Below, one piece after another: positions 10,571 through 29,210 of a DNA stretch of 36,356 nucleotides (position 1 is the stretch's first letter; each line of letters opens with the position of its first letter). The notes beneath the pieces were generated by a model that was not told the DNA's origin, did no database searches, and was given only the letters and a program-made list of their open reading frames with translations. The DNA comes from a bacterium. GTDB lineage: Bacteria > Zhuqueibacterota > Zhuqueibacteria > Zhuqueibacterales > Geothermadaptataceae. The stretch lies in assembly GCA_024275575.1 (NCBI GenBank), contig JAJRYV010000019.1, forward strand, positions 1 to 36,356. Direction: 5' to 3'. The position numbers and the translations under genes are program-made.

Positions 10571-11089
10571 ATGACCAAAAAGGAACTTGCAGCTCAAATC
10601 AGACAAAAATGCTACCTATCCGGTTCGTTCAAATTGCGCTCCGGCCTAAGCAGCAATTTTTACTGGGATAAATACCGTTTCGAAAGCGATCCCTTGCTGA
10701 TAAAACATACCGCCTCATTCATGCAGGAGCTGCTCCCTGATCATTTCGACCGTCTCGCCGGGCTCGAACTTGGCGGTGTGCCAATCGCCACGGTGTTATC
10801 ACAACTCACAGGCAAGCCAACTCTATTTGTGCGGAAGGAAGCCAAAAAATACGGTACTTGTCATTTGGCTGAGGGTGGATACAAAATGGGCGAGAGTCTC
10901 GTCATCATCGAAGACGTCATCACGACGGCGGGGCAGGTTTGCACTTCCGTACGGCAGTTGCGGGAACTCGGCTTTTCCATCGAATATGTGCTCTGCGCCA
11001 TCGACCGGCAGCAGGGCGGCGGGGAAAAAATCGATGAAATCGGTTGTCAGTTGTCTTCGGTTTTTACGCTTTCGGAACTGGAAGACTGA
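10571..11089 (+). CDS. pyrE: Orotate phosphoribosyltransferase
   Basis: PyrE joins orotate to PRPP to make orotidine 5'-phosphate in pyrimidine synthesis. The 172-residue product shows FKLRSGLSSNFYWDK near the N-terminus, the RKEAKKYGT catalytic loop region and the PRPP-binding motif VIIEDVITTAGQ. I use ATG 10571, which is preceded by AAGGA about 10 bases upstream; an open frame from 10511 overlaps the end of the previous gene and adds no conserved sequence. The gap from the AI-2E gene is 13 bases, so it is probably in the same transcript. It ends 14 bases from the stop of the convergent ABC permease gene, with no hairpin terminator seen between them. Confidence 0.94.
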   Translation: MTKKELAAQIRQKCYLSGSFKLRSGLSSNFYWDKYRFESDPLLIKHTASFMQELLPDHFDRLAGLELGGVPIATVLSQLTGKPTLFVRKEAKKYGTCHLAEGGYKMGESLVIIEDVITTAGQVCTSVRQLRELGFSIEYVLCAIDRQQGGGEKIDEIGCQLSSVFTLSELED

Positions 11090-11103
11090 TTGAAACAACA
11101 TTT

Positions 11104-11892
11104 TTAACGCAGGAGTTTTTCCCGCTGCCGCATCCCTCGCAATGCAGCAAAAATAAAAGCCGCTCCGAGCATGATCAATCCGAGGCGATTTTGCCATGTC
11201 CAGTCATTCCACACCGCAGGATCAACACGATTATGGGGTCGGTCATAGGGGTTGAAAAATAGTGACCAGCGGGTATCGTGCAGGGCTTCATTGAAGATAA
11301 ACATGAGAAAGAGCAGCACAGCCGAAACCATGCCCGCAGCAAGGCCGTTGCTGAATTTTACAGCAAAATAAAAAACCAGTCCCGAAATGAAAAACGCCGG
11401 TACATAAGCATGAAACGCAAACCCCCAGATTGGTAAATCGACGAAAAAGAAAAATCCGATTAAACTCAATAAATACGCCAGAATTAAAAAAAGAAGACAT
11501 AGGCTGCCGAAACGAATAAGCCAGATTTTGATGCGAGAACCCGCTATGGTGAAAGTTATTTCGAGGGTACGATTATCTTTTTCCGAGGCGATAAGGTTCA
11601 TATTTAAAAAGACGGCAAAAGCCAAAAGCGGTAATTGCAGCAGAATGTGGAATATCGTATTCGCGGACATCCGGTCGTAAATATTGCTGCGGTAATTGGC
11701 GACGTAGAGAAAGATACAATACACTGCCAGCCCGAAAAGAAACCAGGCAAATCTGTTCGAAAAAACAATGCGGGTATTCAGGCGAAAAACATCGAAGACG
11801 ACCTTTATCTTGCGGGTCAATTTCAGTTCCGAAAAAGTTGTCGAATTTTTATTAATTTCTGCCAAAAGTAGCTGCAAATCACCCTGGTTCAT
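11104..11892 (-). CDS. ABC-2 type permease subunit
   Basis: The 262-residue inner-membrane protein has about six hydrophobic helices and the ABC-2 hallmark of a cytosolic loop, ASEKDNRTLEITFTIAG, between helices 2 and 3. A soluble N-terminal stretch of about 35 residues precedes the first helix, and a periplasmic segment rich in Trp and Asn lies before the last. It begins 7 bases after the stop of the RND-ABC fusion gene, with GAGAG as a likely ribosome-binding site. The natural inference is that it forms the membrane channel driven by the ABC ATPase domain of that fusion, perhaps paired with the other ABC-2 permease of the cluster. Substrate unknown. Confidence 0.85.
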   Translation of the reverse strand: MNQGDLQLLLAEINKNSTTFSELKLTRKIKVVFDVFRLNTRIVFSNRFAWFLFGLAVYCIFLYVANYRSNIYDRMSANTIFHILLQLPLLAFAVFLNMNLIASEKDNRTLEITFTIAGSRIKIWLIRFGSLCLLFLILAYLLSLIGFFFFVDLPIWGFAFHAYVPAFFISGLVFYFAVKFSNGLAAGMVSAVLLFLMFIFNEALHDTRWSLFFNPYDRPHNRVDPAVWNDWTWQNRLGLIMLGAAFIFAALRGMRQREKLLR

Positions 11893-11899
11893 TTCTCTC

Positions 11900-14800
11900 T
11901 CACTTTCTCTCCTGCAATAAATTCAAATAGGCATCTTCAAGGTTTGGTTCTACCGTGCGCGCCTGCAGCTCCTGTGCCGGTTTCTTGCGGGAGACAAACC
12001 GGATGTAGATTCCATCATCTGTTTTATTGTGTTGAATAAGCTGCAATTGATGTTGGGCTTTTTTGAATAATTTTTCCGATAGCAGCGCTTCATAAATTAA
12101 ACCCCGAGTGCGATCCTGCAACTGTTCAGGCGCCCCCTGAAATATCACCCGGCCTTCATCGAGCACCGCCAAATCCCGGCAGGTGCTGGAAATATCTTCG
12201 ATGATGTGGGTACTGAAAATGACGATGCGCTCTTTTGCCAGCTCCGACAGTAAATTGCGAAAGCGGATGCGTTCCCGCGGGTCGAGGCCGGCTGTCGGTT
12301 CATCAACGACGATGATTTGGGGCAGGTGCAATAAAGTTTGTGCTATGCCAACGCGCTGTTTCATACCACCGGAAAAGGTTTTGACCTTATCATTTCGCCG
12401 CTCCCATAGACCGACACTTTTCAGGATATTTTCGATTCGCTTCCCGCGGTCTTCAGCTTCATAAATACCGTTCGTCAGTGCGTAATAATTGAGATATTCC
12501 ACCGGTGTCATATTCTCGTAGAGGCCAAATTCCTGTGGCAGATAACCGATCGATCCATGAAAGGTCTCACGGTGCTCATCAAGTTTGAGACTATTAATCC
12601 TGATGCTGCCGCGTGTTTGCTGCAAAACACCGACGAGAATACGCATCAAGGTTGTTTTTCCGGCGCCATTCGGCCCGAGCAGACCAAACATACCTTTTTT
12701 AATGTGCAAATTGACGCAGAGCAAGGCATCGACCTGCTTATGCGGCGGCCGGATAAACGGTATCTTTTGTACGATGATATAAATCAGGCGCTTAATCCTG
12801 CGCATACGCCCTTGCGGCAATTCCGGGTTGATTTCTCCATTGCGAATTTTCGCGGAAATTTTCCTGAAACGCCAGATGAGGAATGTAATGATCAAAGTGA
12901 TGATAAAAACGGCGGCATTGCCGGTACGCCAATAAAAACAGGCTAAAAAAGCAAACACGATAAAAAAACTGCCACGTTTTTTGTAATTTGCAAAAACATA
13001 TGGCTTGCGCGCCTCTTTTCCCTGAAAAACAGCGCCGGCAATCGATTTGAAGCGCGAGGGAAATGGTGGTCGCCTCAGCTCAAAGCGCCATTTGTACCAG
13101 TAATCACGCAAAATATAAAGAAACGGTAAAGTCAGCAATGTTAGAACACCAAGCCAAAATCCCGAGGTAAAAAAAGTGTGCAGATAAATGAGCATGACAG
13201 CGCCCGCAACCACCCAGATCGAGCCGGCTTGTAATGTTTCCCGTGTCCATTCAAACTCCTGACCATTACCGGACGATCTGCTTCTCCTTCGGCGCTGGTT
13301 TTTCCGCCATTCCCGCGTAAGCCGGCCAGGCGCACCGTAAATTTTTGTTAAATTCGAAATTTCGATTGTCAGATCCACTCCGGCAAGACGGACTTTTTCC
13401 TGTCGTATTTTCAGCATCGATTGAACGGTATAGATCAAGGCAAGGATGATAAACCACACCGGCAAAACGAGAAGCAGAGCATAAAGAAAGCTCGAATAGC
13501 GGTGATCGTACCAGTAGATTATTCCGGCCATGAGAAACGTTGCGATGACCACCCAGGACAGACCAATTTTTTTCAACCACACATGTGTTTGCTCGAGCCC
13601 GACGTAGAGCACCGGAATGAAAAATAATGTCGAAAATGCGGAGAACGACAATCCACCGATAACTGTGAGAGCAAACGGCGGCCAGATTTCCAGTTCCATG
13701 CCTTGCTTCAACGCCAGTGGAAAAACGCCGAGCACGGTCGTTACCGAAGTCATGATGATGGGCCGGACCCTGCTCTGACCGGCGACGATTATTGCGTGCT
13801 GCCAGGAATATCTATCGCGTGTGCGCAAAACGGTGATGCGATCGAGCAAAATAATGCCATTATTCACAACGATACCCAACAGCACGATCAGCCCGAGCAA
13901 TGCCATTGGAGCGCCGGAACCCAGCGATAACGGCGTGCCCGTCAGGGTGAGCGTGAACAAAGCACCGATGATCGCCGTCGGGATGGTGCCAAGAATGACT
14001 ATCGGGCCAAAAAAGGATTCAAACTGAGCGGCGAGAAACATAAAAATTAACAAAGCGCCGATACCCAGCATCCAATAATAGGGTTTTTGCGATTGATCTT
14101 CCTTTTCTTTTTCCAGCGTAAAACCCCGCGGCAAGCGCATATCACCCACGAGGCGATCGACCTGCTTTTCAACCTGCTCGAGGCGGGATTTTGCCTCTGT
14201 TGCAATTTTGCGAAAACCGTATTTAATCCGCACCTGCCGTTCCTGATTATGCCGGGAAATGCTGCCTTCCCCCTCATCCGTGCGGATGGTCGCAACCTCA
14301 TGCAGGGGCACGAGCACACCTGCCTGGCTCAGGATTTTCAATTCCCGCACATCCACAATTCTCGCTTCTTCGATACTCTGAAAGCGGGTGTTGATTTGAA
14401 CATCCCCATGCTCGCTGCTGAAAGGTGTTTGCGAGTTAGCACCGGTTGCCCGCGTCATCCAAATCGTTTGCATAACCTCGCGCATGCTCAAACCCCACAT
14501 CGCCAGCCGCAATCGATCTCCGCGGATTTGCAATTCCGGCATACCGCCGCGCAATGTGCTTTTGACTGAGCGATCGTCGATATCCTGCAACTCTTTCAGT
14601 GTTTCGACGAGTTGCCGGCTCAAAACATCTAATTTCGCGAGATCGTGACCTCGCAAAATCAATGATTTCTTGCTGGAACCCGCCAGAGCGCCGACAAATC
14701 CACTACCGCCGCGCCCCCCGGAACGGTTTCCTTTTTGATCAAAAGTCAAATCAGTACCACGGAAACGCTTATTCCAGCGTCGAATCTTTTCTTTAATTTT

Positions 14801-16636
14801 GGCAAGATTGAGCGCTTCCTGACGTTCATCCGCTGGTTTGAATACGATAGAGATCGAGGCCTCTTCTTCCTGAATATTGGCACGAAATACTTCGACATCT
14901 TTTAATTCAGCGATATTTTTTTCGAGATTTTCCACCACTTCATCGGTGCGGGCAAGGGTGGAACCACGAGGCATGGAAATAAATGCTTCGATACGTTCCG
15001 GTGGTGGCGCCTCACTGCTGCTCATGATAAAAACGACACCGATCAGCAAGCTGACCAGCAACAAACCAACCACTGCACTGAGTGTGCATATTCGATGACG
15101 CAAAACCAATTTGAGAAAAATGCGATAGATTTCTGCAGCCCGGCTGTGCCGGGCTCGATATTCCGGCATTATTTTGAGACTGAATGTTGCCAACAGAGGA
15201 ATGATCGACAAAGCGACGACGAGTGAGATGGCCAGCGGGAAAATGATGGATAATGCCAGCTCGCGAATGAAAAGCCGGGCGTTGCTTTCGACAAACAGCA
15301 ACGGCAGAAAAACGAGAATCGTCGTGCCGGTTGCAGCGAAAATCGAACGCGCCATTTCCCGTGTTCCATCGAATGCAGCATCTTTTGCGGTTTTGCCCTT
15401 TTGAAAATGGGAAAATATATTTTCCATCACCACGATGCCGTTATCGACCAGCATGCCGATCGCCAATGCCAAACCACAAAGGGAAAGAATATTCACCGAA
15501 AGATCATAAGCGTACATCAGATTGAAAGTAATGAGCAGGGAGATGGGAATGGCCGCCATCAAAATGAGGACAAAGCGCAAATTGCGTAAAAAGAGAAAAA
15601 GCACCAGCATAGCCAGCAAAGCGCCGGTCAAAGCCAAATTTTCAACACGCTTAATGGCCCTCTGAATAATTTCCGCCTGATTAAATCCCACGGTCAACTC
15701 GTAACCCAACGGCTGCAGTTCCGCGTTGAGCTCGTCAATTTTTTCCAGGGCATCGCCGGCGACAGCCAACATATTGCTGGTATTGTCCTTCTGCACTATG
15801 ATGCCAACGCTCGATTTGCCATTGACGCGGTAGATGCTGGTCTGCGTTTCACGGTTATAACCAACTTTGGCGACATCACGCAGGTAAACCGGCCCTTGCG
15901 CTCGAACGATGAGATTTTGCAGGTCGCGGATATCATCGATGCGGCCGTCGATGATCACATCCCACATGCGGCCGCTATCGGTTATTCGCCCGGTTTGCCT
16001 AGGTTGTTTGTGGAAGGCGTTTATTTTCTGCTGCACCTGTAAAATGGAAATATTAAGCGCTTCGCAGCGCTCTTTATCCACTTCGACAGCGATGTTTTTC
16101 CGCCGGCCGCCGCCGACGCGCACGTTGACGATGCCGTCGATTTGCTCCAGCGCCGGACGCACCCGACGCTCTGCGACTTCACGCAGGGCTTCGAGCGTGC
16201 TTTGCCCGCGAATGCTCAATTGCATTAAATAAGACGAGATGTCCGCCGTATCAAAATGATTGATGCGCACGAACGAACCGGCAGGCAGGCGCTTTTGCAC
16301 GGCATTAATTCGCTGCTGCAATTTGAGCAGCATAAATTTCATGTCCGTGCCGTATTTAAAACTGATTTGTATCGAGGCAAAACCGGCATTGGCCGAACTG
16401 TTGATATCGACGACGTTTTCAAGCTGGCTGATCTCGCCTTCGATGGGAATAATCAAATCACGTTCGACCTGCAATGGCGAGGCGCCCTGCAGCCCCGCAC
16501 CGATGAAAACCTCAGGCATGATAAATTGCGGTAATAACTGGACCGCCAGCTTGTTCCAGGAAATCAGGCCGAGCAAACACAAACCGATAGCTATCATCGA
16601 CACGGTGACGGGTCTTTTTGCTGAAAAGAAAATCAT
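11900..16636 (-). CDS. Giant RND permease - ABC ATPase fusion protein
   Basis: One uninterrupted frame encodes 1578 residues. Residues 1 to about 1020 are a complete RND (AcrB/HAE-type) permease with the N-terminal helix, two periplasmic porter regions and the TM4 motif GMLVDNGIVVMEN (D398, N399) plus TM10 VVNNGIILLD (N925, N926). Two extra helices follow (about 1026-1042, 1049-1074). Then comes IEISNLTKIYG, which reads like the first strand and A-loop of an ABC ATPase (Tyr1100), and about 200 residues with an RRRR-rich linker and four predicted helices (about 1138-1155, 1159-1176, 1223-1236, 1239-1256). The rest of the ATPase runs from about 1302: Walker A GPNGAGKTT (K1327), Q1368, signature FSGGMKQR (1421-1428), Walker B VVDEPTAGLD (D1445, E1446) and H1477. 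All catalytic residues are present. The RND part should form trimers with an adaptor and TolC-like channel; how that fits with dimeric ABC ATPases is open. Confidence 0.92.
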   Translation of the reverse strand: MIFFSAKRPVTVSMIAIGLCLLGLISWNKLAVQLLPQFIMPEVFIGAGLQGASPLQVERDLIIPIEGEISQLENVVDINSSANAGFASIQISFKYGTDMKFMLLKLQQRINAVQKRLPAGSFVRINHFDTADISSYLMQLSIRGQSTLEALREVAERRVRPALEQIDGIVNVRVGGGRRKNIAVEVDKERCEALNISILQVQQKINAFHKQPRQTGRITDSGRMWDVIIDGRIDDIRDLQNLIVRAQGPVYLRDVAKVGYNRETQTSIYRVNGKSSVGIIVQKDNTSNMLAVAGDALEKIDELNAELQPLGYELTVGFNQAEIIQRAIKRVENLALTGALLAMLVLFLFLRNLRFVLILMAAIPISLLITFNLMYAYDLSVNILSLCGLALAIGMLVDNGIVVMENIFSHFQKGKTAKDAAFDGTREMARSIFAATGTTILVFLPLLFVESNARLFIRELALSIIFPLAISLVVALSIIPLLATFSLKIMPEYRARHSRAAEIYRIFLKLVLRHRICTLSAVVGLLLVSLLIGVVFIMSSSEAPPPERIEAFISMPRGSTLARTDEVVENLEKNIAELKDVEVFRANIQEEEASISIVFKPADERQEALNLAKIKEKIRRWNKRFRGTDLTFDQKGNRSGGRGGSGFVGALAGSSKKSLILRGHDLAKLDVLSRQLVETLKELQDIDDRSVKSTLRGGMPELQIRGDRLRLAMWGLSMREVMQTIWMTRATGANSQTPFSSEHGDVQINTRFQSIEEARIVDVRELKILSQAGVLVPLHEVATIRTDEGEGSISRHNQERQVRIKYGFRKIATEAKSRLEQVEKQVDRLVGDMRLPRGFTLEKEKEDQSQKPYYWMLGIGALLIFMFLAAQFESFFGPIVILGTIPTAIIGALFTLTLTGTPLSLGSGAPMALLGLIVLLGIVVNNGIILLDRITVLRTRDRYSWQHAIIVAGQSRVRPIIMTSVTTVLGVFPLALKQGMELEIWPPFALTVIGGLSFSAFSTLFFIPVLYVGLEQTHVWLKKIGLSWVVIATFLMAGIIYWYDHRYSSFLYALLLVLPVWFIILALIYTVQSMLKIRQEKVRLAGVDLTIEISNLTKIYGAPGRLTREWRKNQRRRRSRSSGNGQEFEWTRETLQAGSIWVVAGAVMLIYLHTFFTSGFWLGVLTLLTLPFLYILRDYWYKWRFELRRPPFPSRFKSIAGAVFQGKEARKPYVFANYKKRGSFFIVFAFLACFYWRTGNAAVFIITLIITFLIWRFRKISAKIRNGEINPELPQGRMRRIKRLIYIIVQKIPFIRPPHKQVDALLCVNLHIKKGMFGLLGPNGAGKTTLMRILVGVLQQTRGSIRINSLKLDEHRETFHGSIGYLPQEFGLYENMTPVEYLNYYALTNGIYEAEDRGKRIENILKSVGLWERRNDKVKTFSGGMKQRVGIAQTLLHLPQIIVVDEPTAGLDPRERIRFRNLLSELAKERIVIFSTHIIEDISSTCRDLAVLDEGRVIFQGAPEQLQDRTRGLIYEALLSEKLFKKAQHQLQLIQHNKTDDGIYIRFVSRKKPAQELQARTVEPNLEDAYLNLLQERK

Positions 16637-16673
16637 TGAACCACTTTGGTTTGAATTTTTTTTACAGACGCAT

Positions 16674-17159
16674 CTATTCGTTGCGCGCTTTCCCCGTTAT
16701 ATGATCGATTTCAATTTTAATCACAACGGTTCGTTTAAACTCTTTTTCGATAACGGCTGCGCCTTCAACCGTAAATTGCGGTGAAAATTTATCGACAAGC
16801 GCCTCGAGCGCCGCTTTTTTTTCCCGGTCTTCGACACGGCCGGCATGGCCAAATACGACTACACTTGCGTAATTTGTGGTAAACTGCTCCGGTATGACCT
16901 GGTTCTTTCCGACGACACAAAAACAGACCTGATTATTTGAGTCGATATTATCAAGTTTGTGGCCGCGGCTGGCAGAGTGGAAATATATCGCGTTACCGAT
17001 CACCACATAATGTACAGGCGTACCATAAGGTTGGTTGTTCGGGCTAACGGTAGAAAGAATACCAAATTCTGCGGTCTGCAAGATTTTCCGGGCTTGCTGT
17101 TCACTTAAAACCCGGTCTTTTCGTCTGATTGGACGGACGTCGCTTTTATTGGACAGCAT
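16674..17159 (-). CDS. NimA/PNPOx-like FMN-binding protein
   Basis: The 161-residue protein is a small split-barrel flavoprotein of the pyridoxamine 5'-phosphate oxidase superfamily, closest by eye to the NimA/'flavin-nucleotide-binding' branch. Signs are the N-terminal RRKDR, GILSTVSPNNQPYGTPVHYV, and IYFHSASRGHKLDNI, the region that binds FMN in relatives. NimA members reduce nitroimidazoles; most relatives have unknown substrates. The ATG at 17159 has AAGGGA just upstream. It sits between the two RND genes on the same strand, with 76 bases before and 37 bases after, so it is probably co-transcribed with the pumps. Its link to export is unclear. Confidence 0.86.
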   Translation of the reverse strand: MLSNKSDVRPIRRKDRVLSEQQARKILQTAEFGILSTVSPNNQPYGTPVHYVVIGNAIYFHSASRGHKLDNIDSNNQVCFCVVGKNQVIPEQFTTNYASVVVFGHAGRVEDREKKAALEALVDKFSPQFTVEGAAVIEKEFKRTVVIKIEIDHITGKARNE

Positions 17160-17235
17160 CGATTCCCTTTTTATTTAAAATAGTGAAAAAGGACCTTTCA
17201 ATGAGCAAACAACTTCAACCGGTGCATCGGGGTTT

Positions 17236-20200
17236 TTACTCTCTTTTTCTATCGATCAAATCATATACTACGGGAATGATCAGCAGCGTTAGAATCGTCG
17301 AGGTCACGAGACCACCAATAACAGCGATGGCCATCGGTGCGCGCAGTTTTGCCCCCTCACCAAAGCCGATTGTCAGCGGTAACAATGCGAGAATCGTCGT
17401 AGCGCTGGTCATGACGATCGGTCGCAAACGATCTCTTCCGGCCTGCATGAGCGCTTCCTTGCGCTTCATACCGTCCGCCCGTAAGCGATTGACATAGTCA
17501 ACCAGCACGATGGAATCGTTTGCAGCGATACCCGCCAGCATGATGATGCCGATATATGCCATCACACTCAACGGCTCGCCGAGGAGAAAAAAGGCATAAA
17601 GTACACCGACACCTGCCAAAGGTAACGTGAGCAAAATTGTAAACGGGTGCAAAAAACTCTCAAACAGAGAGGCCAGGGTCATATAAACCAGCAGCACGGA
17701 AAGGATAAGTGCAAAACGAAGCTGATCGAAAGATTCACGGCGAGCCTTTTCTTCTCCGGCAAAGCGCAATTCATAACCAGGTTTGAGCACGATTGACTGC
17801 ATAATTTCGTTGACTCGCGCGATCGCCTCGCTGAGGGCGATTCCTTTTTTGAGATAGGCGGTGACATAAGCCACCCGTGATTGATTATCGCGCAAAATCT
17901 CTTTCGGTCCTTCTCCTTTTTCAAAATGTACAATGTCTTTCAGCCGTAAAATCGTGCCGCCCGGTGCTTTAATCATGAGATTCTGCAGTTCGGCCAGCGT
18001 CGATTTATCGTACAATACCCGGATATCCCGCTGAATGCCGTCGTTGTAAAAAGTCGTTGCAACTTCTCCGGCAAGGCGGTTTCGCACAACCGAGGTCACC
18101 TGCTCCAGGTCGAGATTAAAACTGGCGGCCAGCAATCGATCGAGACGTAATTTGATTTCCGGCCGGCCCAGTTGGAAGCTGCTTTCGATGCTTTGCAAAA
18201 GATCGAGATCAGCAAAAGCGTTTTCGATGCGGGCACTGGTTTCGCGCAAACCATCGAGGTTTTGCCCGCGAATCTGCACCGTGATCGGCGCGCTGTCGGT
18301 GCCGATGATCTGCTGAAAACTCGTTTCACGAATATGAAAATTTATGCTGACCTCTGGTAAATCCAATCGTGGGCGTAAGCGTTCAATCACTTGCGGCGCT
18401 GTCAAAACATCGTTTTCTGCAGACAACAGCAGTGTTATCGAAGCCCGGTGTTCACCGGATTCGGCGGTTTCGGAAATGAGACTCTGTACCGTGCGCACAT
18501 TAAGCGTCGCAAAGACATGTTGCAGATTCTTTCCTAAAACCTGACGAATTCGACCTTCTGTTGCCGAAAGCACTTTTAGCGTATTTTCCAGCGAAGTGCC
18601 GGGATTTAATTCGACATCGATTTGCAGTTGATTTTCCTGGCTGCGCGGAACGAATTCCGAACCGATTTTCGGTAATAACAACAATGCCGAAAGCAATAAA
18701 AAAGCGGCGATCAGGATCACTTTTCCCCGGTTATCGAGTGCCTGCCGCAGCAATTTTTCATAGAAAGGAAAACGCAGTTCCCGCGCGGCAAATTGATGCC
18801 TCTCCTGTTTTTTAAATAAACGTGCAGCGAGAACGGGGATCAGTAAAAATGCGATGAGCAGAGAAGAGAGCAGCGAAAACGCCACCACCCAAGCCTGCTC
18901 ACGAAATAACTCCGCGGCCACGCCACGCACAAAAACGATAGGCACAAAAACGATAATCGTCGTCAAAGTGCTGGCGACGATTGCCACGGCGACCTCATTT
19001 GTGCCTTTTGTCGCTGCTTCTTTTGCAGAATCTCCGAGGGACTTGCGGCGAAAAATATTTTCTATGACGACGATGGCATTATCCACCAGCATGCCGGCGC
19101 CAAGCGCCAGACCGCCGAGGGTCATGACATTGAGTGTGAGATTTTGAAAATACATCAGGGAAAAAGTGGCCAGAATGGAAATCGGGATGGCCAGGCTGAC
19201 GATGATCGTCACCCCGACATGCCGCAGAAAGACATAGAGCACCAGAATGGCGAGAATGATACCGAGTACGGCCGTCGATTTCACTTCACCGATAGCGCTG
19301 TTGATAAACCTCGCCTGACTATTGATGAGGATGAATTCCAAGCTGGGCATTTCCCTTTGCATATCTGCCATCGTCACATCAATTGTCTGCGCAACGATAA
19401 CTGTATTGTCCTGCGCTTCCTTGAATAAATACAGGGCTACGGCTTCCCGCCCATCAAATCGCACGACATGATTGCGCTCCTGCGGAGCATAACCGATTTT
19501 CGCCACATTAGAAAGAAAAACCGGTGTTTTATCACCAGAAAATTTCCCGCCGGATTCAACGCTGACTAGCGAATCTGCCACAGCTGATCTATATCCGACG
19601 ACCGTCGTGCCTACATCCTCGATGGATGCGAATTCACCGATGCCTTTGATGAGATAGGATTTACCCTGCTGGTCGAGTTTTCCTCCCGAAGCGTTGGCAT
19701 TGGCTTCCTTTAACTTGTTGATGATCGTGCTCGGCGTCAGGCCATAGGCTTCAAGCAGGTAATCATCGAGTTTGATCTGAATTTCACGTTTGATACCACC
19801 GAATATCCGCACCTGCGCCACACCATCAAGGCGCTCGAGATTGCGTTTGATGACGTTTTCAGCGATGCGCCGCAATTCATCGAGATCGTGCTCACCCCTT
19901 GACCGCAGTGCGTAAATTACGATCGGTTGCTGCTGCGGATCATAACGGGCGATGGTGATATCCTGCACCTCCGGATCTGATTCAAGTGAGGCGACCTTTT
20001 TTTGGACATCAAGCAGGGCAAAGTCCATATCTGTCCCCCAACTGAACGTTGCCGTCACGATCAATCGTCCCAGACTGCATGTCGTTTGTACATCGACAAC
20101 CCGACTGATCGTGCCGAGCTCACCTTCGAGTTGCCGGCCAAATTTATGCTCCATCTCCAGCGGCGACTTCTCTCCTGAACGCAATTCGACGACGATGCGC

Positions 20201-20331
20201 GGATTGTAAATCGCGGGCAAAAGATCGGTTCCCAGTTTATCCAGTGAAATGAATCCCAGCAAACAGATGCCCAGCATAATCATGGCCACGGTGACAGGAT
20301 ATTTTACTGAAAAATTTGATAAATTAAACAT
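17236..20331 (-). CDS. RND efflux permease (AcrB/HAE-type)
   Basis: The 1031-residue inner-membrane pump has the usual RND length and plan: a first helix (YPVTVAMIMLGICLLGF), two periplasmic porter/docking regions and two six-helix bundles. Motifs include GMLVDNAIVVIEN in TM4 (D417, N418) and GIAANDSIVLVDYVN in TM10 (N938, D939). Compared with the AcrB proton relay (D407, D408, K940), the second Asp is Asn and the Lys position is Asn. Such pumps trade protons or other ions for export of drugs, lipids or metabolites through an adaptor and TolC channel, both encoded just upstream. I start at ATG 20331; an in-frame TTG at 20358 adds nine residues without family character. Confidence 0.93.
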   Translation of the reverse strand: MFNLSNFSVKYPVTVAMIMLGICLLGFISLDKLGTDLLPAIYNPRIVVELRSGEKSPLEMEHKFGRQLEGELGTISRVVDVQTTCSLGRLIVTATFSWGTDMDFALLDVQKKVASLESDPEVQDITIARYDPQQQPIVIYALRSRGEHDLDELRRIAENVIKRNLERLDGVAQVRIFGGIKREIQIKLDDYLLEAYGLTPSTIINKLKEANANASGGKLDQQGKSYLIKGIGEFASIEDVGTTVVGYRSAVADSLVSVESGGKFSGDKTPVFLSNVAKIGYAPQERNHVVRFDGREAVALYLFKEAQDNTVIVAQTIDVTMADMQREMPSLEFILINSQARFINSAIGEVKSTAVLGIILAILVLYVFLRHVGVTIIVSLAIPISILATFSLMYFQNLTLNVMTLGGLALGAGMLVDNAIVVIENIFRRKSLGDSAKEAATKGTNEVAVAIVASTLTTIIVFVPIVFVRGVAAELFREQAWVVAFSLLSSLLIAFLLIPVLAARLFKKQERHQFAARELRFPFYEKLLRQALDNRGKVILIAAFLLLSALLLLPKIGSEFVPRSQENQLQIDVELNPGTSLENTLKVLSATEGRIRQVLGKNLQHVFATLNVRTVQSLISETAESGEHRASITLLLSAENDVLTAPQVIERLRPRLDLPEVSINFHIRETSFQQIIGTDSAPITVQIRGQNLDGLRETSARIENAFADLDLLQSIESSFQLGRPEIKLRLDRLLAASFNLDLEQVTSVVRNRLAGEVATTFYNDGIQRDIRVLYDKSTLAELQNLMIKAPGGTILRLKDIVHFEKGEGPKEILRDNQSRVAYVTAYLKKGIALSEAIARVNEIMQSIVLKPGYELRFAGEEKARRESFDQLRFALILSVLLVYMTLASLFESFLHPFTILLTLPLAGVGVLYAFFLLGEPLSVMAYIGIIMLAGIAANDSIVLVDYVNRLRADGMKRKEALMQAGRDRLRPIVMTSATTILALLPLTIGFGEGAKLRAPMAIAVIGGLVTSTILTLLIIPVVYDLIDRKRE

Positions 20332-20442
20332 ACGGCTATCCAGATGTTGAACCCACAAAAGGGTTACTTAAAAGTGTACTTTTTTCATTAAGAAATTATT
20401 TCAAGCTCATTTCAACATCAACACCGGATGAGTCGCCGGGCT

Positions 20443-21501
20443 TTACTCAATAACCCGGACTTTCGATTTGTCGCGCAAAGTTTCGTGCCCTTTGACGACA
20501 AGCCGATCTCCTTCCGCCAGGCCCCCGGTTATCTCGATCAAATCACGTGTTTCGATGCCGGCGCTCACCATAATACGGCTGGCGGAAATGCCATTAACGA
20601 TGAAAACCAGTTGCTGGTTGTTGCGAGTTAAAACCGCATATTTCGGAACGACGAGTGCATTTTTTTTCTCTTCAGTGATGATATCGGCTTTGACAAACAT
20701 GCCCGGGCGCAGCAACAAATCGCGGTTTTCCACTTCGATGATGACTTTGAAAGTGCGCGTCTGCGGGCTGATTATCGGATCGATGGAGGCGACCCGGCCG
20801 GAAAAAATTTCATCTTCGAGCGAATAATTGCTAATTTCCACCCGACTGTCCGTCTTAATCTGTCCCTGGTCAGAATTGGGTAAATTAACTTCCAGCGTAC
20901 ATTTTGAATAGTTGCTAATCGTGCAAACTTTAAAACCCGGCTTGATTCTTGTATTAACGAAAGTCGTCCCTAAATTGGCTATAACTCCGGCACCATGCGC
21001 CCGCAATTGCAATTTTTGTTGGTTCAAAACCGCGGATTCATAATTCAGGCGAGCGTCGAAAGCAGCACGTTTTGCCAGGTTCAATTCTTTCTCGGTGACG
21101 CCCCCTTCCACGTACAACGCCTTTTGCTTTGTCCATTCGCGCTCAGCATCCTGCATCGCCATTTTTTTCGATTCCACACGAGTTAACAGCACATGTTCCG
21201 GATTTTCCAGTATTGCGATAATTTCACCGGCATGCACGGTTTCGGCATTTTTATATTTTCGCAGTATTGCCGGGCTGATGTGTAAAACTCCCTCAATTTC
21301 GGCAATCAGCGCTTGTTCGTATTTGGCTTTCAACGTACCTGTCGCCGAAATACTGCTGGCGATGGTTTGTCGTGTAACTTTCATCGTACTCACCGGAATG
21401 GTGAGATCGGCAGCAGAGCGGTTTTCATTTTCATCACATGCCCAAAAGAGTAAAAGTGAAAATATGGCGAGCCATCGCATTAACCAGGCTGAATCTTTCA
21501 T
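20443..21501 (-). CDS. RND periplasmic adaptor (membrane fusion protein, HlyD/AcrA type)
   Basis: The 352-residue protein has a hydrophobic N-terminus ending in ACDEN (Cys22), which probably makes it a lipoprotein, although the lipobox is not ideal. A lipoyl half-motif, a short helical hairpin (about 100-165), the second lipoyl half, a beta-barrel domain with DPIISPQTRTFKVIIEV, and a membrane-proximal domain ending near VKGHETLRDKSKVRVIE follow. It would bridge the inner-membrane pump and the outer-membrane channel across the periplasm. The ATG at 21501 has GGAG 5 bases upstream. It is the only adaptor gene in the cluster, so the two RND proteins may share it. Confidence 0.93.
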   Translation of the reverse strand: MKDSAWLMRWLAIFSLLLFWACDENENRSAADLTIPVSTMKVTRQTIASSISATGTLKAKYEQALIAEIEGVLHISPAILRKYKNAETVHAGEIIAILENPEHVLLTRVESKKMAMQDAEREWTKQKALYVEGGVTEKELNLAKRAAFDARLNYESAVLNQQKLQLRAHGAGVIANLGTTFVNTRIKPGFKVCTISNYSKCTLEVNLPNSDQGQIKTDSRVEISNYSLEDEIFSGRVASIDPIISPQTRTFKVIIEVENRDLLLRPGMFVKADIITEEKKNALVVPKYAVLTRNNQQLVFIVNGISASRIMVSAGIETRDLIEITGGLAEGDRLVVKGHETLRDKSKVRVIE

Positions 21502-21536
21502 CTATTCTCCAAACTATATTGAATTTAAATTGATCA

Positions 21537-23048
21537 TCACTCTTCCTGTGGCAGTTGCACTTCGATGCGTTTGTTTGCCTCGAAGTTCCACAGCGTCTTG
21601 CGGCGCAAATCAGCCAGCGCCTGCTTATAATCGATGATTGCATTGAGATAATTGGTTTTTGCTGTTGTCAGCCGCGTTTGTTCAAGCGCCAAACCCTGAC
21701 TCGAAAGATCGCCATTTTCAAATTTCAATAATGAGATGCGGTAATTTTTCCGTGCAAGCCCCTCGCTGCGCCTGGTGATCTGAACACGTTTGTCAGCAGA
21801 TTTCAAATTACGCACGGCGGCACGGATTTCTATTGTGATAGATCGAATGCGATCTGCCTGCGCCAGTTTTTTGCTCATCAGCGCCGCTTTTTGCGACTGC
21901 ACCGAATACGCATTTTTGTTCCAGTCCCACAGCGGTACTGTCAACGAAACGATCACAGAGCGGTCGTCGTTAAAATCGCGGAAAGCCTCATCGAGTTTAT
22001 TCGCGCGGTTGAGCAGACCAAAACGGGCGTAGAGCTGCCCTTTTATTTCACGTTGTGCATCGGTTTCCGTGACGCTTAATTTGCCGAGCTCGATGGCGAT
22101 CTCATCAGAGCGCAATTCGGTGCGGTAGGTGAGCGCTTTGGCAATGGCGTCTTCAAGAGAAATCTTTGCAGGCTGATATTCAAGATCGGCAACCACTCGC
22201 AGGTCTTCCGTAATCTCCAGGCCGATGAGATTTTTAAAAGAATCCTGACTTTGCTCGAGCTGGGCCTCGTCGGTTGAAAGGCTATTCCGGGCATTGGCGA
22301 GATCGATTTCCAGGCGCAAAACATCAACTTCGGCGAGCAAACCTGCCTGTTGTTTCAGACGACCGATATTGTAAGCATTCAGCGATTGTTCCACCTGCGT
22401 TTTATCGATTTCCACCTGTCGCTGCGCTTTGAACAAATTGAAAAAGCCGGTTGTGATATTATAAATCAAATCGAGTTGACTGCGGCTGTAGCTCGCGGTG
22501 CTTTCTTCGAGATTCAATTCTGCCCGTTTAACGCCAGTTTTCAAACGATTATAAGTAAATAATGACTGCTGGTACTGCAGGGTAAGATTCGGACTGTAAC
22601 TTGTCACTCCGTCGGTCCTGGACAAGGTATTCTCCAAATTTTGATCAAACCTTTCCATGCTGCCGACGAGGGAAAACGTCCCATCCAGAAGCGGAATGGG
22701 TTTATTAATATATAGATCACCTTTAAAAGTAATATTATCTTGCTGCGAAAACAGGAACCCCCCGTTGATGGGAATTTTCTGTTCGGTTCGCAAATAATTG
22801 GGCAGGCTTGAAAAAACGAGTTCACTATTGCTCTTATAACCGGCACGTGCCGATTTCAGACTCATCTGTGATTGCACGAGACCCTGTTTTAACTGTTTGA
22901 TGCGAATACTTTTTCTCAGCGAAATATCAATGCATTGCTGCAAAGTATACAAATGAGGTGATTGGGAAAAGAGGGTTTTACAAGCCATAGTGAAAAAAAA
23001 GAACAACACGACAGAACCGAGCCGAAATAGTCTTGAACCTGTTTTCAT
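21537..23048 (-). CDS. TolC-like outer-membrane efflux channel
   Basis: The 503-residue protein is an outer-membrane efflux protein. A signal peptide (about residues 1-29) is followed by YTLQQCIDISLRKS, the typical opening helix of the family, then two repeats of coiled-coil helices separated by beta-hairpins (for example NLTLQYQQSLFTYNR). The second half shows LDEAFRDFNDDRSVIVSLTVPLWDW, the matching segment of the second repeat. It would form a trimeric channel that receives substrate from the adaptor and pump. GGAAGGAGAAA directly precedes the ATG at 23048, a strong ribosome-binding site. Gaps to the neighbours are 48 and 35 bases. Confidence 0.92.
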   Translation of the reverse strand: MKTGSRLFRLGSVVLFFFFTMACKTLFSQSPHLYTLQQCIDISLRKSIRIKQLKQGLVQSQMSLKSARAGYKSNSELVFSSLPNYLRTEQKIPINGGFLFSQQDNITFKGDLYINKPIPLLDGTFSLVGSMERFDQNLENTLSRTDGVTSYSPNLTLQYQQSLFTYNRLKTGVKRAELNLEESTASYSRSQLDLIYNITTGFFNLFKAQRQVEIDKTQVEQSLNAYNIGRLKQQAGLLAEVDVLRLEIDLANARNSLSTDEAQLEQSQDSFKNLIGLEITEDLRVVADLEYQPAKISLEDAIAKALTYRTELRSDEIAIELGKLSVTETDAQREIKGQLYARFGLLNRANKLDEAFRDFNDDRSVIVSLTVPLWDWNKNAYSVQSQKAALMSKKLAQADRIRSITIEIRAAVRNLKSADKRVQITRRSEGLARKNYRISLLKFENGDLSSQGLALEQTRLTTAKTNYLNAIIDYKQALADLRRKTLWNFEANKRIEVQLPQEE

Positions 23049-23096
23049 TTTCTCCTTCCAGATTTGCCTTTATAATGAAGTCCGTTGCCCTCAGTT

Positions 23097-24317
23097 TCAA
23101 TTGACGAATTCCCAGCGGATCGCATCAGCGATGAGCCGACCGTTTCCCTCATCGATCACTTCGACGATTGCCGGTTTTCCTTTTTTAAAATAAAACTGTC
23201 CCATCGGCAACCAGTCATCGGTGGTTTCGAAGGGATGCAATTTGATCTTTTGCCGGCCATCGGCGGTGGTTATTTTCAAAATCAATTCATCGACAAAATA
23301 GCGCGGCCGCAGAAACCAGGATTTGCCGTACGGCAATCGGTAGCTCAGCGCATAAGTCCCTGATTTAGGAATATCCGCCTGCCAGCGCGCCGGATATTCA
23401 CCCGAGGCTGCACGCTTAAAATGCCAACTCAGATAATAATCACCATAAGCCAAATCGTTAATTCGCGCCTGCCAGGATTTTCCCTTCAACGCGGGGCGAA
23501 AATACCTGGCTTCATCCTGCAGCGGCGAGGAGAATTGATCGCTCTGATCGTCCAGTACGAAATTAAGCGAATCATTCAGAGAATGGGTGACGACGAAAAC
23601 AGAATCGACGGCCTGCCGACGCAGGAACCCGGCTTTGATCTGTACCGCCCGGCGAATTTTACCGCGATTGCGCGCATAATAGGGAAAAAGTTGAATCATC
23701 TCGGGTTTCGCATAAACCGGAAACTGAATTTCTTTTTCTTCAAAGCTGTCGAGAAAAACCTTTTTCCAGATATCATCCCCTTCCACATCACAGCTTAATC
23801 GCACGAATCCAGCTCCCTCTTCGCCGTTTTTAATTCTCACTTTAACCTGATAAACCGTTTTGGTGTTGCGCCTTCCTCGCGGTTTTAATTTCTGAGCCTG
23901 TGCTACGGTGATTTTATAACCCGGATAGGTCGGTTTATCAAACCAGGTCACAAAAAAATCCTTTATCTGCGAGCTTTTTTGCTCCTGCACAATTTGCAGC
24001 AAATCCTCGCGCGATACCGGTTTGTAACGAAAGCGTTCGAGCAGGTTTTTCATCCCTTTTTGCCAGGTCTGTTCACCGACAAGATTGCTCAACATCTCGA
24101 GGATTTGCGGAGATTTAAAATCGAGTGCAGCACGGTACAATCCTCCGTTACCAGAGGGTTTCAGTTCAGAAAGCGGCACATTTTCCAAAACAGTGATAAG
24201 TGAATCCAGCTTGACATTGTAGCGACGGCGAATCAGCCAACCGGAATTGAAATGACGCACCTGATCGAAACTGCTGAAACGACGCTTTTCATCGCGGGGA
24301 TAAAAAGTATCATACAC
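23097..24317 (-). CDS. C-terminal part of the ABC-2 permease/M1-like protein, separated by an in-frame stop
   Basis: This 406-codon frame starts at GTG 24317, two codons after the TAA that ends the upstream 693-residue frame, and in the same frame. The sequence continues an M1 aminopeptidase-like fold: FNSGWLIRRRYN, then a helical stretch with GLYRAALDFKSPQILEMLSNL (given in part), and beta-rich C-terminal domains with FFVTWFDKPTYPGYKI. No signal peptide or membrane helix is present, so alone it would be cytosolic, whereas the fused form would put it in the periplasm. No convincing ribosome-binding site precedes the GTG. It is best read as the second half of one 1102-residue protein broken by a nonsense codon, unless re-initiation or readthrough occurs. 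The two parts show no other damage. Confidence 0.7.
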   Translation of the reverse strand: MYDTFYPRDEKRRFSSFDQVRHFNSGWLIRRRYNVKLDSLITVLENVPLSELKPSGNGGLYRAALDFKSPQILEMLSNLVGEQTWQKGMKNLLERFRYKPVSREDLLQIVQEQKSSQIKDFFVTWFDKPTYPGYKITVAQAQKLKPRGRRNTKTVYQVKVRIKNGEEGAGFVRLSCDVEGDDIWKKVFLDSFEEKEIQFPVYAKPEMIQLFPYYARNRGKIRRAVQIKAGFLRRQAVDSVFVVTHSLNDSLNFVLDDQSDQFSSPLQDEARYFRPALKGKSWQARINDLAYGDYYLSWHFKRAASGEYPARWQADIPKSGTYALSYRLPYGKSWFLRPRYFVDELILKITTADGRQKIKLHPFETTDDWLPMGQFYFKKGKPAIVEVIDEGNGRLIADAIRWEFVN

Positions 24318-24323
24318 TCGTTT

Positions 24324-24326
24324 TTA
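24324..24326 (-). other. In-frame TAA stop splitting the permease/M1-like gene
   Basis: Reading the minus strand, the codons are GAG CGG TGC TAA AAA CGA GTG TAT GAT. The frame is open for 693 codons before and 408 codons after this TAA, and both sides read as parts of the same domain. One base change from a sense codon (for example CAA, GAA or AAA) would explain it. A sequencing error is also possible. Confidence 0.75.
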
Positions 24327-26405
24327 GCACCGCTCAAAATATTGCACTTCCAGTGCACGATGAAGTACCGGATTTTGGATATCTACCTGAAAATGCAGGT
24401 AATTTTTCAAGGGCGAATTCAGTGTTCCATCACCCTGCCAGGCTTTATAAGGAAGAAGAAAATCGAGCATGAAATCGATGAATACATCTCGTTTTATTTT
24501 CCTGATACTGTCATCGCGGCCGCGGCGTTTTGCTTTTTTCTGCCGCAGTTCAATCTCTTTTTCGATATTATGGCCGGTAATTGCTGTTTCCTCAAGCATG
24601 ATGATACCCGGCTGTAGTAATGTATTGCGTACACCCGATTCCGTCAGATAAATTTGCATCTGCGTCGGAATTTCAACAAAGGAAAGTTGTGGATAGGGGT
24701 AAGCCGTTCCGGTGACCGTTTCAAATTCATCGAGCAGGGTTTCGATGGCTTCGAAGCAGGTGTCGGCGATTTCCGAGAACGTCTCAATCGCCGGCAAATG
24801 CTGCGGATAATAATACAACGCCAGCTCCGCCTGGCGGAATTTGCGTGACAGCTTTTTATAGGGGCCGGCATTGAGAGAAAAACCCGGTACCGGCTTTTCA
24901 ACTGCGAACACATACCGGCCTTGCAGGCTATCAGAAGATATCTGCCGACCCTGTGTAATATAATGCAATTCTGCAGGTCCTTCAATTGTTATGCGTGCCG
25001 TAGCAAAATTTTTTGGCGGGCGGCGACGAAATCCATATCCGCAAGCAACGCCGGGAATGGGATACCAGCCGCTCTCCATCGGTAAAATGACAAAATCATT
25101 ATCCAGCCAGGATGATATTGAACTTCTGAGAAAAGGTCCCTCACGCTTTCTGATGAGATCATCCTGATCAGGCAGGCGATCGAGTATAAAATCATCTGCA
25201 TTGGGTTTTCCGGCATAAGTGAGGATGAGTTCGATGGAATCTGCCGGTGTCAGCGGCTGCTTCAGTCTGATATTCAAAACATTAAATTTATGCTCGAATG
25301 GAAGCGTCTCGCCCGCAATACTTTTTAGGGTGTGAATTTTCAGCGCCTGATTGAGAGAGAAAAGCAATTCCGCCAAAGGCTCGGCATTGGGATTTTTTAT
25401 GGAGAATTGCACCGTTGCCTGCAGCGGTGCCCCATCGCCGAACAGCTTTACATCAAAATCATAATGAGAAACCTTGCATGTCGCTTTGTTTACAAGAGAT
25501 TTTTGAAAGGCATAGGCGTCCTTGCGCCAGTTTTGCAATTCCTTTTCCATTTGCACGACGCGCAAAACGAGAAAAACAGCGATCAGAGAAAAGATCGTTC
25601 CGCCCAATAATACAAAATGCTGCAATTTTTTGTTTTGTACAGGCCGGGGAAAAAGAATGATCGAAAAACAGAGCAATGCCAGGGCAAATACGGTGTAAAA
25701 AAGGCGCTGATACAAGAGGTAACCCAGGTCGGCAAAACCGATTAAATCACTGGCAAAAAGCGGTGAGGTGAAACAGGCATAATCAAAAAAGCCGAGAAAT
25801 TTTCCCTGAAAATAAAAGAGAATTGCAGCGACAAAACCTATCGGCAAAATGATTGAAAGCGCCTGCAGCCTAAGAGAGCTGACAAAAAAAAAGACCAGCG
25901 CCGTCATAAACAAAATCGCCGGGATCGTCGCGATCATTATATAAATGAATGCCGGTTGCAAACCGATGCTTGCATCGGTGAAATACCACTTGAATATTCT
26001 GCCGATGCTCGCCAGCACAATGAGGGCAATATTGAGATAAATAAGCGAACTGACAACCCCCCAAAATTTACCGATAACCCAGCTTGCGGTATCCACCGGG
26101 CGGGAGTACATCACCTGATCGAGACGGGAGTGGACCTCTGTTTTGCGAAAATCGCTGGCGATAAAAATAATCAAAATGGCCTGCAGAAAACTGAAGAGAT
26201 ACATCGCTAGCAAGGCATCCGTTCCCTGCAACATAAACTCCCCGGGCGGGTTATTATCAAAAATTGTCGCGAGAGTCGTGCCCAGGATGAACAGCGCCAC
26301 GATGAACAGGCCAATGCCGCTGAGAACCCAGAATTTTGCTGTGCGAAAAATCAGCAGTCTCTCAGCACGCCCGACAGCCAATATGTGTTTAATGAAAAGA
26401 CTCAC
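24324..26405 (-). CDS. ABC-2 permease fused to inactive M1 peptidase-like domain (N-terminal part)
   Basis: The first 300 or so of 693 residues hold about seven membrane helices of an ABC-2 permease, with the cytosolic loop ASDFRKTEVHSRLDQVMYSR between helices 2 and 3. A periplasmic M1-aminopeptidase-like part follows: an N-terminal beta domain (HYDFDVKLFGDGAPLQATVQ) and the start of the catalytic-fold domain (TGTAYPYPQLSFVEIP). Such ABC-permease/M1 fusions are known in the FCB group. The place where HEXXH is expected reads RDVFIDFML, so the zinc site is missing and the domain cannot be a normal M1 peptidase. The start is GTG 26405 with AGGGA about 9 bases upstream. The next frame downstream continues it after an in-frame TAA. 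Its ATPase partner is the gene just upstream. Confidence 0.85.
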   Translation of the reverse strand: MSLFIKHILAVGRAERLLIFRTAKFWVLSGIGLFIVALFILGTTLATIFDNNPPGEFMLQGTDALLAMYLFSFLQAILIIFIASDFRKTEVHSRLDQVMYSRPVDTASWVIGKFWGVVSSLIYLNIALIVLASIGRIFKWYFTDASIGLQPAFIYIMIATIPAILFMTALVFFFVSSLRLQALSIILPIGFVAAILFYFQGKFLGFFDYACFTSPLFASDLIGFADLGYLLYQRLFYTVFALALLCFSIILFPRPVQNKKLQHFVLLGGTIFSLIAVFLVLRVVQMEKELQNWRKDAYAFQKSLVNKATCKVSHYDFDVKLFGDGAPLQATVQFSIKNPNAEPLAELLFSLNQALKIHTLKSIAGETLPFEHKFNVLNIRLKQPLTPADSIELILTYAGKPNADDFILDRLPDQDDLIRKREGPFLRSSISSWLDNDFVILPMESGWYPIPGVACGYGFRRRPPKNFATARITIEGPAELHYITQGRQISSDSLQGRYVFAVEKPVPGFSLNAGPYKKLSRKFRQAELALYYYPQHLPAIETFSEIADTCFEAIETLLDEFETVTGTAYPYPQLSFVEIPTQMQIYLTESGVRNTLLQPGIIMLEETAITGHNIEKEIELRQKKAKRRGRDDSIRKIKRDVFIDFMLDFLLPYKAWQGDGTLNSPLKNYLHFQVDIQNPVLHRALEVQYFERC

Positions 26406-26453
26406 CTCAACATATCCCTATTTTTCCTCCTCCAGACCCCATTCTTTAAATTT

Positions 26454-27365
26454 TCAGGATTTTGCTTCCTGTAAAATATCTTCATCAACACGTTCCCCGG
26501 TGTGCTCATCCATGAAATTCATGTAAGCGTCTTCAAGATTTGCGACTGCCGGTTTGAAATCAAAACCGGGAATTGGCTTGCCGACAACACGCAGATGCAA
26601 GTTGCCGTGAGTGGAAATCGTCGAAATAATCTGCATTTTGGCGGCAATTTGAGAATAGTCGTGTTCGCGGCAAGCGACAGTCCATGCTTTCGATCTGGCA
26701 TGCTGAATGAGCCCGGCAGGCGTGCCGCGGTAAACAATTTTCCCCCGGGACAAAATCGCCAGTTCATCGCAGGTGCTGGAAATATCGCCGACAATATGTG
26801 TACTCAGGATAATTATTTTATCGGTACCGATACCGGCCAGTACATTGCGGAAACGAATGCGCTCTTCCGGGTCGAGCCCAACGGTTGGTTCATCGACAAC
26901 CAGCATTTGCGGGTCATGGATCAAGGCTTGCGCAATGCCGAGACGGCGCAGCATGCCGCCGGAATAGGTTTTAACTTTGCGGTCACGCGCTACATCCAAC
27001 GCGACCTCCTTGAGAATATGCAGAGCTTGCATCTGTGCAGTCTTACGTTTGATACCGCTTAATTGTGCAATGTAAAAAAGAAATTCATAGCCGGTCATCT
27101 GTGGATAAACTCCGAAAAACTGTGGCAGATATCCCAATTTCTGCCGGATTCTCTTCCGTTGATTGCAGATATTTTCACCATCGACGAAAACCTCTCCCGA
27201 ACTCGGCATCTCCAGCGTTGCAAGAATTTTCATCAACGTGCTTTTGCCGGCGCCATTGGGACCAAGCAGGCCAAACATGCCCTGACCAATTTCAAGGTTG
27301 ATATCATGAAGCGCCCGTACGCCGCCTTTATAGGTTTTATTGAGATTTTTGATCGCGATACGCAT
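26454..27365 (-). CDS. ABC transporter ATP-binding protein (ABC-2 exporter type)
   Basis: The 303-residue ATPase has every nucleotide-binding motif: A-loop Tyr12, Walker A GPNGAGKST (35-43), Q82, signature YSGGM (134-138), Walker B VVDEPTVGLD (156-165) and H190. A C-terminal tail of about 90 residues ends in ANLEDAYMNFM, a feature shared with the tail of the RND-ABC fusion (PNLEDAYLNLL). The protein is in the group that drives ABC-2 permeases and should power the permease/M1-like protein encoded 48 bases downstream. It is the first gene of the long minus-strand cluster. Its close likeness to the ABC half of the fusion suggests a duplication within the cluster. Confidence 0.94.
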   Translation of the reverse strand: MRIAIKNLNKTYKGGVRALHDINLEIGQGMFGLLGPNGAGKSTLMKILATLEMPSSGEVFVDGENICNQRKRIRQKLGYLPQFFGVYPQMTGYEFLFYIAQLSGIKRKTAQMQALHILKEVALDVARDRKVKTYSGGMLRRLGIAQALIHDPQMLVVDEPTVGLDPEERIRFRNVLAGIGTDKIIILSTHIVGDISSTCDELAILSRGKIVYRGTPAGLIQHARSKAWTVACREHDYSQIAAKMQIISTISTHGNLHLRVVGKPIPGFDFKPAVANLEDAYMNFMDEHTGERVDEDILQEAKS

Positions 27366-27539
27366 GAGATTTTTGTACTGTTTTTTGCGCTGATTGTTAC
27401 ATCACTTTTTTATTTGAATTACTAACCCGCACCTTTATATCCCCCCCTATTTCCCTGCCACTGAATCAATAATTGCGTTTTGGCACGATTAGCCGATAAT
27501 GTTTGAAAGCAATAAATCGGATACCGGAGCCAGAATATA
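27366..27539. other. Divergent intergenic region at the head of the export cluster
   Basis: This 174-base AT-rich region lies between the start of the ABC ATPase gene (minus strand) and a small secreted-protein gene (plus strand). It should contain the promoter of the 16-kb cluster, but on the minus strand I could only find an isolated TATAAA about 75 bases before the ATG, without a good -35. A run of seven C residues is present near 27441. No regulator gene or clear operator is adjacent. Confidence 0.4.
27473..27500 (+). promoter_or_regulatory. Possible promoter for the small secreted protein gene
   Basis: TTGCGT (27473-27478), a 16-base spacer and GATAAT (27495-27500) lie about 40 bases upstream of the ATG at 27540. 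The match is moderate and the call is tentative. Confidence 0.35.
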
Positions 27540-27956: not shown

Positions 27957-27984
27957 CTTTTTACAAAGAAAAAATACATGCTGA

Positions 27985-29208: not shown

Positions 29209-29210
29209 CT

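Follow-up and report, generated by a model that had tools for sequence, protein, structure and literature searches.

A gene in the window (the whole 36,356-nucleotide stretch of DNA analysed here) encodes a complete RND permease and the ATPase cassette of an ABC-2-type exporter in one polypeptide of 1578 residues. The unit that this protein forms with its neighbors is likely to be a real ABC exporter tethered to a tripartite RND pump, rather than an RND permease merely gated by ATP, because the fused ATPase has an adjoining ABC-2 permease and the same cluster encodes a second ATPase together with an ABC-2 permease bearing an M1-like domain (ABC-2/M1).

One frame for an RND permease and an ABC cassette

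The open frame runs on the minus strand from an ATG at 16636 to 11900, with no internal stop. Within it, Pfam ACR_tran matches residues 1-1013 (profile positions 1-1019 of 1021; E 1e-195) and ABC_tran matches residues 1308-1449 (E 2e-29), bearing out the claim of an earlier note on this DNA that a full RND permease and an ABC ATPase share one chain. The ACR_tran domain is full-length with both porter loops, as in HAE1/AcrB-type RND permeases, and the cassette residues singled out in the note (K1327, Q1368, FSGGMKQR at 1421-1428, D1445, E1446, and H1477) were each found where it had placed them. The gene and its parts are as follows:

11900..16636, minus strand: RND-ABC fusion gene, 1578 aa (ORF and translation; ACR_tran plus ABC_tran; conserved as a single frame)
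13598..16636, minus strand: RND permease part, residues 1-1013, 12 TM helices and two porter loops (Pfam ACR_tran; alignment to solved pumps; conserved positions)
15443-15445, minus strand: TM4 aspartate D398 (AcrB D407 position)
13421..13567, minus strand: first extra hydrophobic hairpin past the RND part, residues about 1024-1072, TM13/14 (alignment-averaged hydropathy; helices of the AlphaFold2 model)
13334..13372, minus strand: ABC cassette piece 1, strand beta1 and A-loop Tyr1100, residues 1089-1101
12737..13333, minus strand: membrane insert within the ABC cassette, residues 1102-1300 (R1108; hairpins at about 1138-1180 and 1222-1260)
11903..12736, minus strand: bulk of the ABC cassette plus a C-terminal ABC-2-type tail, residues 1301-1578 (ABC_tran; DrrA/GldA-like; fold match)
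12653..12676, minus strand: Walker A, residues 1321-1328
12353..12376, minus strand: ABC signature FSGGMKQR, residues 1421-1428
12299..12304, minus strand: Walker B Asp1445 and catalytic Glu1446

A search with fusion residues 1024-1298 matched 15 of 40 related genomes, and a profile of this linker recovered homologs from 41 of the 82 genomes of the source phylum (KSB1-like), nearly all as one frame of about 1565-1632 residues. The same single frame, of 1562-1592 residues, is present in cultured, independently assembled Bacteroidota. A scan of public bacterial genomes, queried with TM10-12 plus the linker and followed by a check for single-frame structure, returned homologs from Prolixibacter, Draconibacterium, Mariniphaga, Marinifilum, Marivirga, Sunxiuqinia, Parabacteroides, Bacteroides faecis, Bacteroides faecichinchillae, Odoribacter, and Tannerella within the Bacteroidota, and from Zixiibacteriota, Krumholzibacteriia, Latescibacterota, and Calditrichaeota outside it. 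The fusion is sparse in Bacteroidota: with part of the candidates scored, it turned up in at least 4 of the 296 genomes sampled. Conservation counts given below refer to 69 distinct near-full-length homologs.

Halves encoded apart, which the earlier note had named as evidence against a true fusion, are almost never seen. The single locus with separate ORFs is L129 (at L129:5507-5723), in which the RND frame ends after TM14, the cassette half including the insert restarts before beta1, and a non-coding stretch lies between TM14 and beta1; L031 has a frame change within the insert and L130 an in-frame stop within the RND part, and all three are isolated draft-genome cases. An assembly join, the other objection anticipated, was ruled out by the independent assemblies with the same single frame, those of nearly all of the 41 phylum genomes as well as those of the cultured Bacteroidota; although the source genome is itself a draft (144 contigs, 4.96 Mb), the 69 homologs, cultured type strains among them, leave an artefact fusing two genes a negligible likelihood.

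The divided cassette and its membrane insert

The Walker A lysine, Q-loop glutamine, SGG of the signature, Walker B Asp/Glu, D-loop aspartate, and H-loop histidine are each present in all 69 homologs, as are I1091, K1098, and the A-loop tyrosine Y1100. The cassette is catalytically complete and of the DrrA/NosF type, with a drrA match below the family cut-off; its nearest NCBIfam relatives (GldA, DrrA, and other ABC-2-type ATPases) all fall below family cut-offs. The earlier description of a complete ABC ATPase therefore stands as to the catalytic residues but not as to contiguity, since the first strand and A-loop (residues 1089-1100) are cut off from beta2 and Walker A by a membrane insert.

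Several observations place the missing piece before the insert. The fusion stretch LTIEISNLTKIYG, which carries I1091, K1098, and Y1100, aligns with the first strand and A-loop, IAIKNLNKTYKG, of the stand-alone ATPase encoded nearby. From Y1100 to G1315, the glycine preceding Walker A, the 69 homologs span 124-240 residues (median 193); the corresponding Tyr-to-Gly spacing in the stand-alone paralog is 15 residues. An AlphaFold2 model of residues 1010-1578 (32 homologs as input, mean pLDDT 82) has a strand at 1091-1100, and solved cassettes align to this model from residue about 1089-1090, across the insert: FtsE over 212 of 218 residues from model position 81 (residue 1090; rmsd 2.1, Z 26.5), and TM_1403 over 266 residues (Z 28.6). 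Because about 199 of the model residues inside the FtsE match lie past the insert, the strand before the insert must be used. The limits of this first cassette piece were set by conservation, the modelled strand, alignments to nucleotide-binding domains in the PDB, and the start of the stand-alone paralog (P0005).

The insert contains two hydrophobic hairpins, with one additional hairpin after RND TM12, and its R1108 is invariant (69/69). A Pfam search of the insert gave no family matching more than one member, and a sequence search of the PDB found no credible relative. Given the hairpin parity and the cytoplasmic C-terminus of the RND, both cassette pieces would be cytoplasmic. Sequence and model show the insert and the post-RND hairpin anchoring the cassette in the membrane next to the RND. 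A cassette interrupted by membrane helices is unusual in itself, and such a split would put the ATP-binding site in direct physical continuity with that membrane.

Probable permease partners and the conserved cluster

The genes accompanying the fusion in the window are all on the minus strand, with gaps of <90 bp:

11104..11892, minus strand: ABC-2 (type V exporter) permease, 262 aa, 7 bp 3′ of the fusion
16674..17159, minus strand: FMN-binding pyridoxamine-oxidase-like protein, accessory (Pfam Pyridox_ox_2)
17236..20358, minus strand: second RND permease, unfused, 1040 aa (ACR_tran; immediately precedes the fusion in most loci)
20443..21501, minus strand: periplasmic adaptor (MFP), 352 aa (HlyD_D23; RND_mfp above cut-off)
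21537..23048, minus strand: outer-membrane channel (TolC/OEP), 503 aa (Pfam OEP)
23097..26405, minus strand: ABC-2 permease with a C-terminal M1-peptidase-like/golvesin-like domain
26454..27365, minus strand: stand-alone ABC ATPase, 303 aa (closest paralog of the fused cassette in the source genome, 41% identity)

The strongest evidence on the role of the fused cassette is its linkage to the downstream permease gene, which lies 3′ of the fusion on the same strand in 61 loci, mostly overlapping it or within tens of bases, and was found by six-frame search in 7 further loci. Among loci with enough flanking sequence, the sole case without a downstream ABC-2 gene is that of one KSB1 genome (L034/L134). 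Because an ABC-2 gene adjoins the fusion in all flanked genomes but this one, the fused cassette can be credited with a permease partner, and we hold with good confidence that it serves the downstream ABC-2 permease. The product of 11104-11892 gave nothing above cut-off against Pfam, with weak matches to ABC2_membrane families; the top structural matches of its AlphaFold2 model (pLDDT 86) were all ABC-2/type V permeases with Z of 15-17, namely ABCG2 (16.7), ABCA1 (16.6), NosY (16.3), and PmtD (15.1). Conservation in this protein peaks in the cytoplasmic loop that joins TM2 to TM3, the coupling-helix position, in which E111, K122, and R127 are invariant. The downstream gene thus supplies a six-helix permease with a coupling loop as the likely cassette partner, as in type V exporters.

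The core order of the cluster is ATPase – ABC-2/M1-like – outer-membrane channel – adaptor – RND – RND-ABC – ABC-2, and the adaptor and outer-membrane channel encoded beside the permease are those of a tripartite efflux system. The window has in addition the FMN-binding gene between the RND and the fusion, a position in which it was found only here and in one genome of the same genus (L027). The cluster is complete, minus the FMN gene, in Bacteroides faecis MAJ27, Parabacteroides massiliensis, Marivirga sericea, and Marinifilum fragile, and it is likewise complete without that gene in many KSB1-like genomes; five genomes from the same taxonomic order in which the cluster is rearranged keep the RND ortholog (61-65% identity).

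The second ATPase and permease are related to the first pair and distinct from it. Fused and stand-alone cassettes formed related, well-separated clades in a tree, about 14 kb separate the stand-alone ATPase from the fused cassette in all eight Bacteroidota genomes compared, and the two ABC-2 permease families share weak profile similarity (hhalign probability 88%). Among 82 genomes, 39 carry fusion and ABC-2/M1 gene together, 2 and 4 have one without the other, and 37 lack both (Fisher p 4e-16, in a test that ignores shared ancestry); in G023 both are present on different contigs. The cluster therefore encodes two cassettes and two ABC-2 permeases, exactly as many as a single ABC exporter requires.

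The ABC-2/M1 gene is one frame of about 1100 residues in relatives and intact in nearly all other genomes with a match. In the window, an in-frame TAA at 24324-24326 (minus strand) cuts it into 693 and 406 residues, reflecting either decay or a sequencing error, and the partner in the source genome may consequently be broken or made as two pieces. The HExxH motif was found in none of 11 relatives' M1-like domains (L028, L029, L170-L178), so the domain looks catalytically dead and is perhaps a periplasmic cargo or docking domain.

A scan of 10900-28000 for promoter and terminator patterns gave no promoter signal usable above shuffled sequence. Beyond the cluster, 27985-31734 (minus strand) carries adjoining genes for a sugar nucleotidyltransferase, AnmK, and a BadF/BcrA-type kinase, perhaps a cell-wall sugar recycling operon. 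A patatin-like phospholipase, POTRA, and Omp85 are joined in a single chain of 918 residues at 32282-35038 (plus strand), resembling type Vd self-secreting phospholipases.

Energy supply and a candidate two-engine exporter

The proton relay of AcrB consists of D407, D408, K940, R971, and T978 in AcrB numbering; the TM4 and TM10 registers of the fusion were taken from alignment to solved RND pumps and the TM11 equivalence was set by motif. The positions of D407 (D398, 69/69), R971 (R956, 69/69), and T978 (T963, 68/69) are kept; that of D408 is Asn in 63 of the 69 homologs and Ser or Thr in the others, and that of K940 is Asn in all 69, leaving the fused RND without a complete AcrB-type relay. 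Since the D408 and K940 positions are Asn, proton drive of the fused RND may be weak or different. This change is not specific to the fusion, a possibility that was considered and rejected, because unfused RNDs of the source genome show the same motifs: VDN in TM4 of L002, L004, and L005, and VVNN in TM10 of L004 and L005.

On balance we lean toward a model of an ABC-2 exporter docked covalently onto a tripartite RND pump, in which the fusion would be the core component of a hybrid exporter spanning the envelope. Judged by family and gene order, the fused RND, the neighboring RND, the adaptor, and the TolC-like channel would form the trunk leading from the periplasm to the outside. The C-terminal third of the fusion would serve an ABC-2 (type V) exporter as its ATPase and, as the conserved gene order suggests, would pair with the ABC-2 protein encoded immediately downstream. 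By counting and co-inheritance, the stand-alone ATPase and the ABC-2/M1 permease probably contribute one cassette and one permease to a heterotetramer that has two of each; a pair of separate homodimeric ABC units would fit the sequences equally well. The cargo, for which a lipid-like or amphiphilic molecule is the most plausible candidate, would be carried by ATP hydrolysis out of the cytoplasm or inner leaflet and into the outer leaflet or periplasm, right at the RND entry. The RND would then push it on through adaptor and channel, possibly aided by the proton gradient via the retained TM4 aspartate. A class of two-engine tripartite exporters, with a cassette threaded through the membrane and ATP hydrolysis mechanically coupled to RND cycling, is a tentative extension to which we give somewhat less than an even chance.

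The hybrid machine envisaged in the earlier note, with ATP used to gate, prime, or feed the RND channel, fits these data and is strengthened by the conservation, but a merely gated RND is less likely than a tethered ABC exporter. Mechanical gating without ABC transport is nevertheless the main rival: the ABC part would carry no cargo, and ATP binding and hydrolysis would move the insert helices and the ABC-2 permease, opening, assembling, or priming the RND, adaptor, and channel. ABC proteins of type VII (MacB-like) and NosDFY-like systems do mechanical work, and here the insert connects the cassette with the membrane domain of the RND, the two Asn positions would leave room for ATP as energy source, and the M1-like domain of the ABC-2/M1 partner is large and has no HExxH. 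We consider this rather unlikely, however, as the adjoining permease has the ordinary fold of type V exporters, a class whose members move lipids and polymers, and the Asn pattern recurs in unfused RNDs.

Two separate pumps could instead share one operon, the link fixing only stoichiometry or position, with different cargos or with the fused cassette working as a homodimer with the downstream permease. The near-invariant linkage of fusion and ABC-2 gene, the co-inheritance of fusion and ABC-2/M1 even on the different contigs of G023, and a long conserved insert in place of a loose linker make this improbable, although RND, adaptor, and channel already make up a full tripartite set on their own and the second ATPase/ABC-2-M1 pair could be self-sufficient. 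A regulatory or assembly cassette, acting as a sensor or switch with no permease, would suit the L034/L134 genome, but the permease is present everywhere else with flanking sequence and its coupling-loop residues are conserved, so that we give this reading very little weight.

For an ABC-2 exporter docked on an RND pump, the nearest functional precedent, by analogy, is DrrABC with MmpL7. In the portions of two sources that treat PDIM export in mycobacteria, both the type V exporter DrrABC and the RND protein MmpL7 are needed, and MmpL7 lacks the proton-relay residues (PMC11539658; PMC8427324); a scaffold role for MmpL7 is proposed in the relevant part of the first (PMC11539658). As those portions describe it, the mycobacterial route shares with the fusion cluster a DrrA-type cassette, a two-permease type V exporter, and an RND needed for the same route; it differs in having separately encoded polypeptides and an MmpL-type RND, the fusion being one chain of the ACR_tran type, and in having no adaptor/TolC set, and the same portions describe no membrane insert in the cassette. 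Covalent docking would take the place of the loose ABC and RND partnership of DrrABC/MmpL7.

Other known systems share parts of the layout. HAE1-type pumps (AcrAB-TolC, MdtABC) have a full-length ACR_tran permease, an adaptor, and an outer-membrane channel, and MdtB/MdtC are likewise two adjacent RND permeases; these pumps have no ABC part, whereas the fusion has Asn at the AcrB D408 and K940 positions and, after TM12, three extra hydrophobic hairpins and the cassette. ABC-2/type V exporters (NosFY, PmtCD, Wzm-Wzt, ABCG/ABCA) share the cassette sequence type and the permease fold, but in the fusion the cassette continues an RND chain and is divided in two by the membrane insert. MacAB-TolC (type VII) is also an ATP-driven tripartite pump with an adaptor and a TolC-like channel; MacB differs in being one ABC protein with four TM helices, a periplasmic domain, and no RND part, and in the fusion no MacB/FtsX-family Pfam match was found, only ACR_tran preceding the cassette.

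A search of the open-access literature, which covered part of a large review, found no paper discussing an RND-ABC fusion, the sole phrase match being a Snf7-RND fusion; public databases may list the Pfam architecture. A review describes envelope-spanning efflux systems as ABC-, RND- or MFS-powered (PMC8277102). The fusion unites an RND permease and an ABC-2 cassette in one polypeptide conserved over several phyla, including in cultured gut bacteria. How ABC and RND transporters cooperate is a long-standing question, for example in mycobacterial PDIM export, and because the fusion cluster is present in cultured commensals, this cooperation is testable there with one operon. The fusion occurs in many environmental and some gut bacteria, and its nearly constant position next to the remaining parts of the ABC exporter suggests an unstudied two-engine machine exporting across both membranes.
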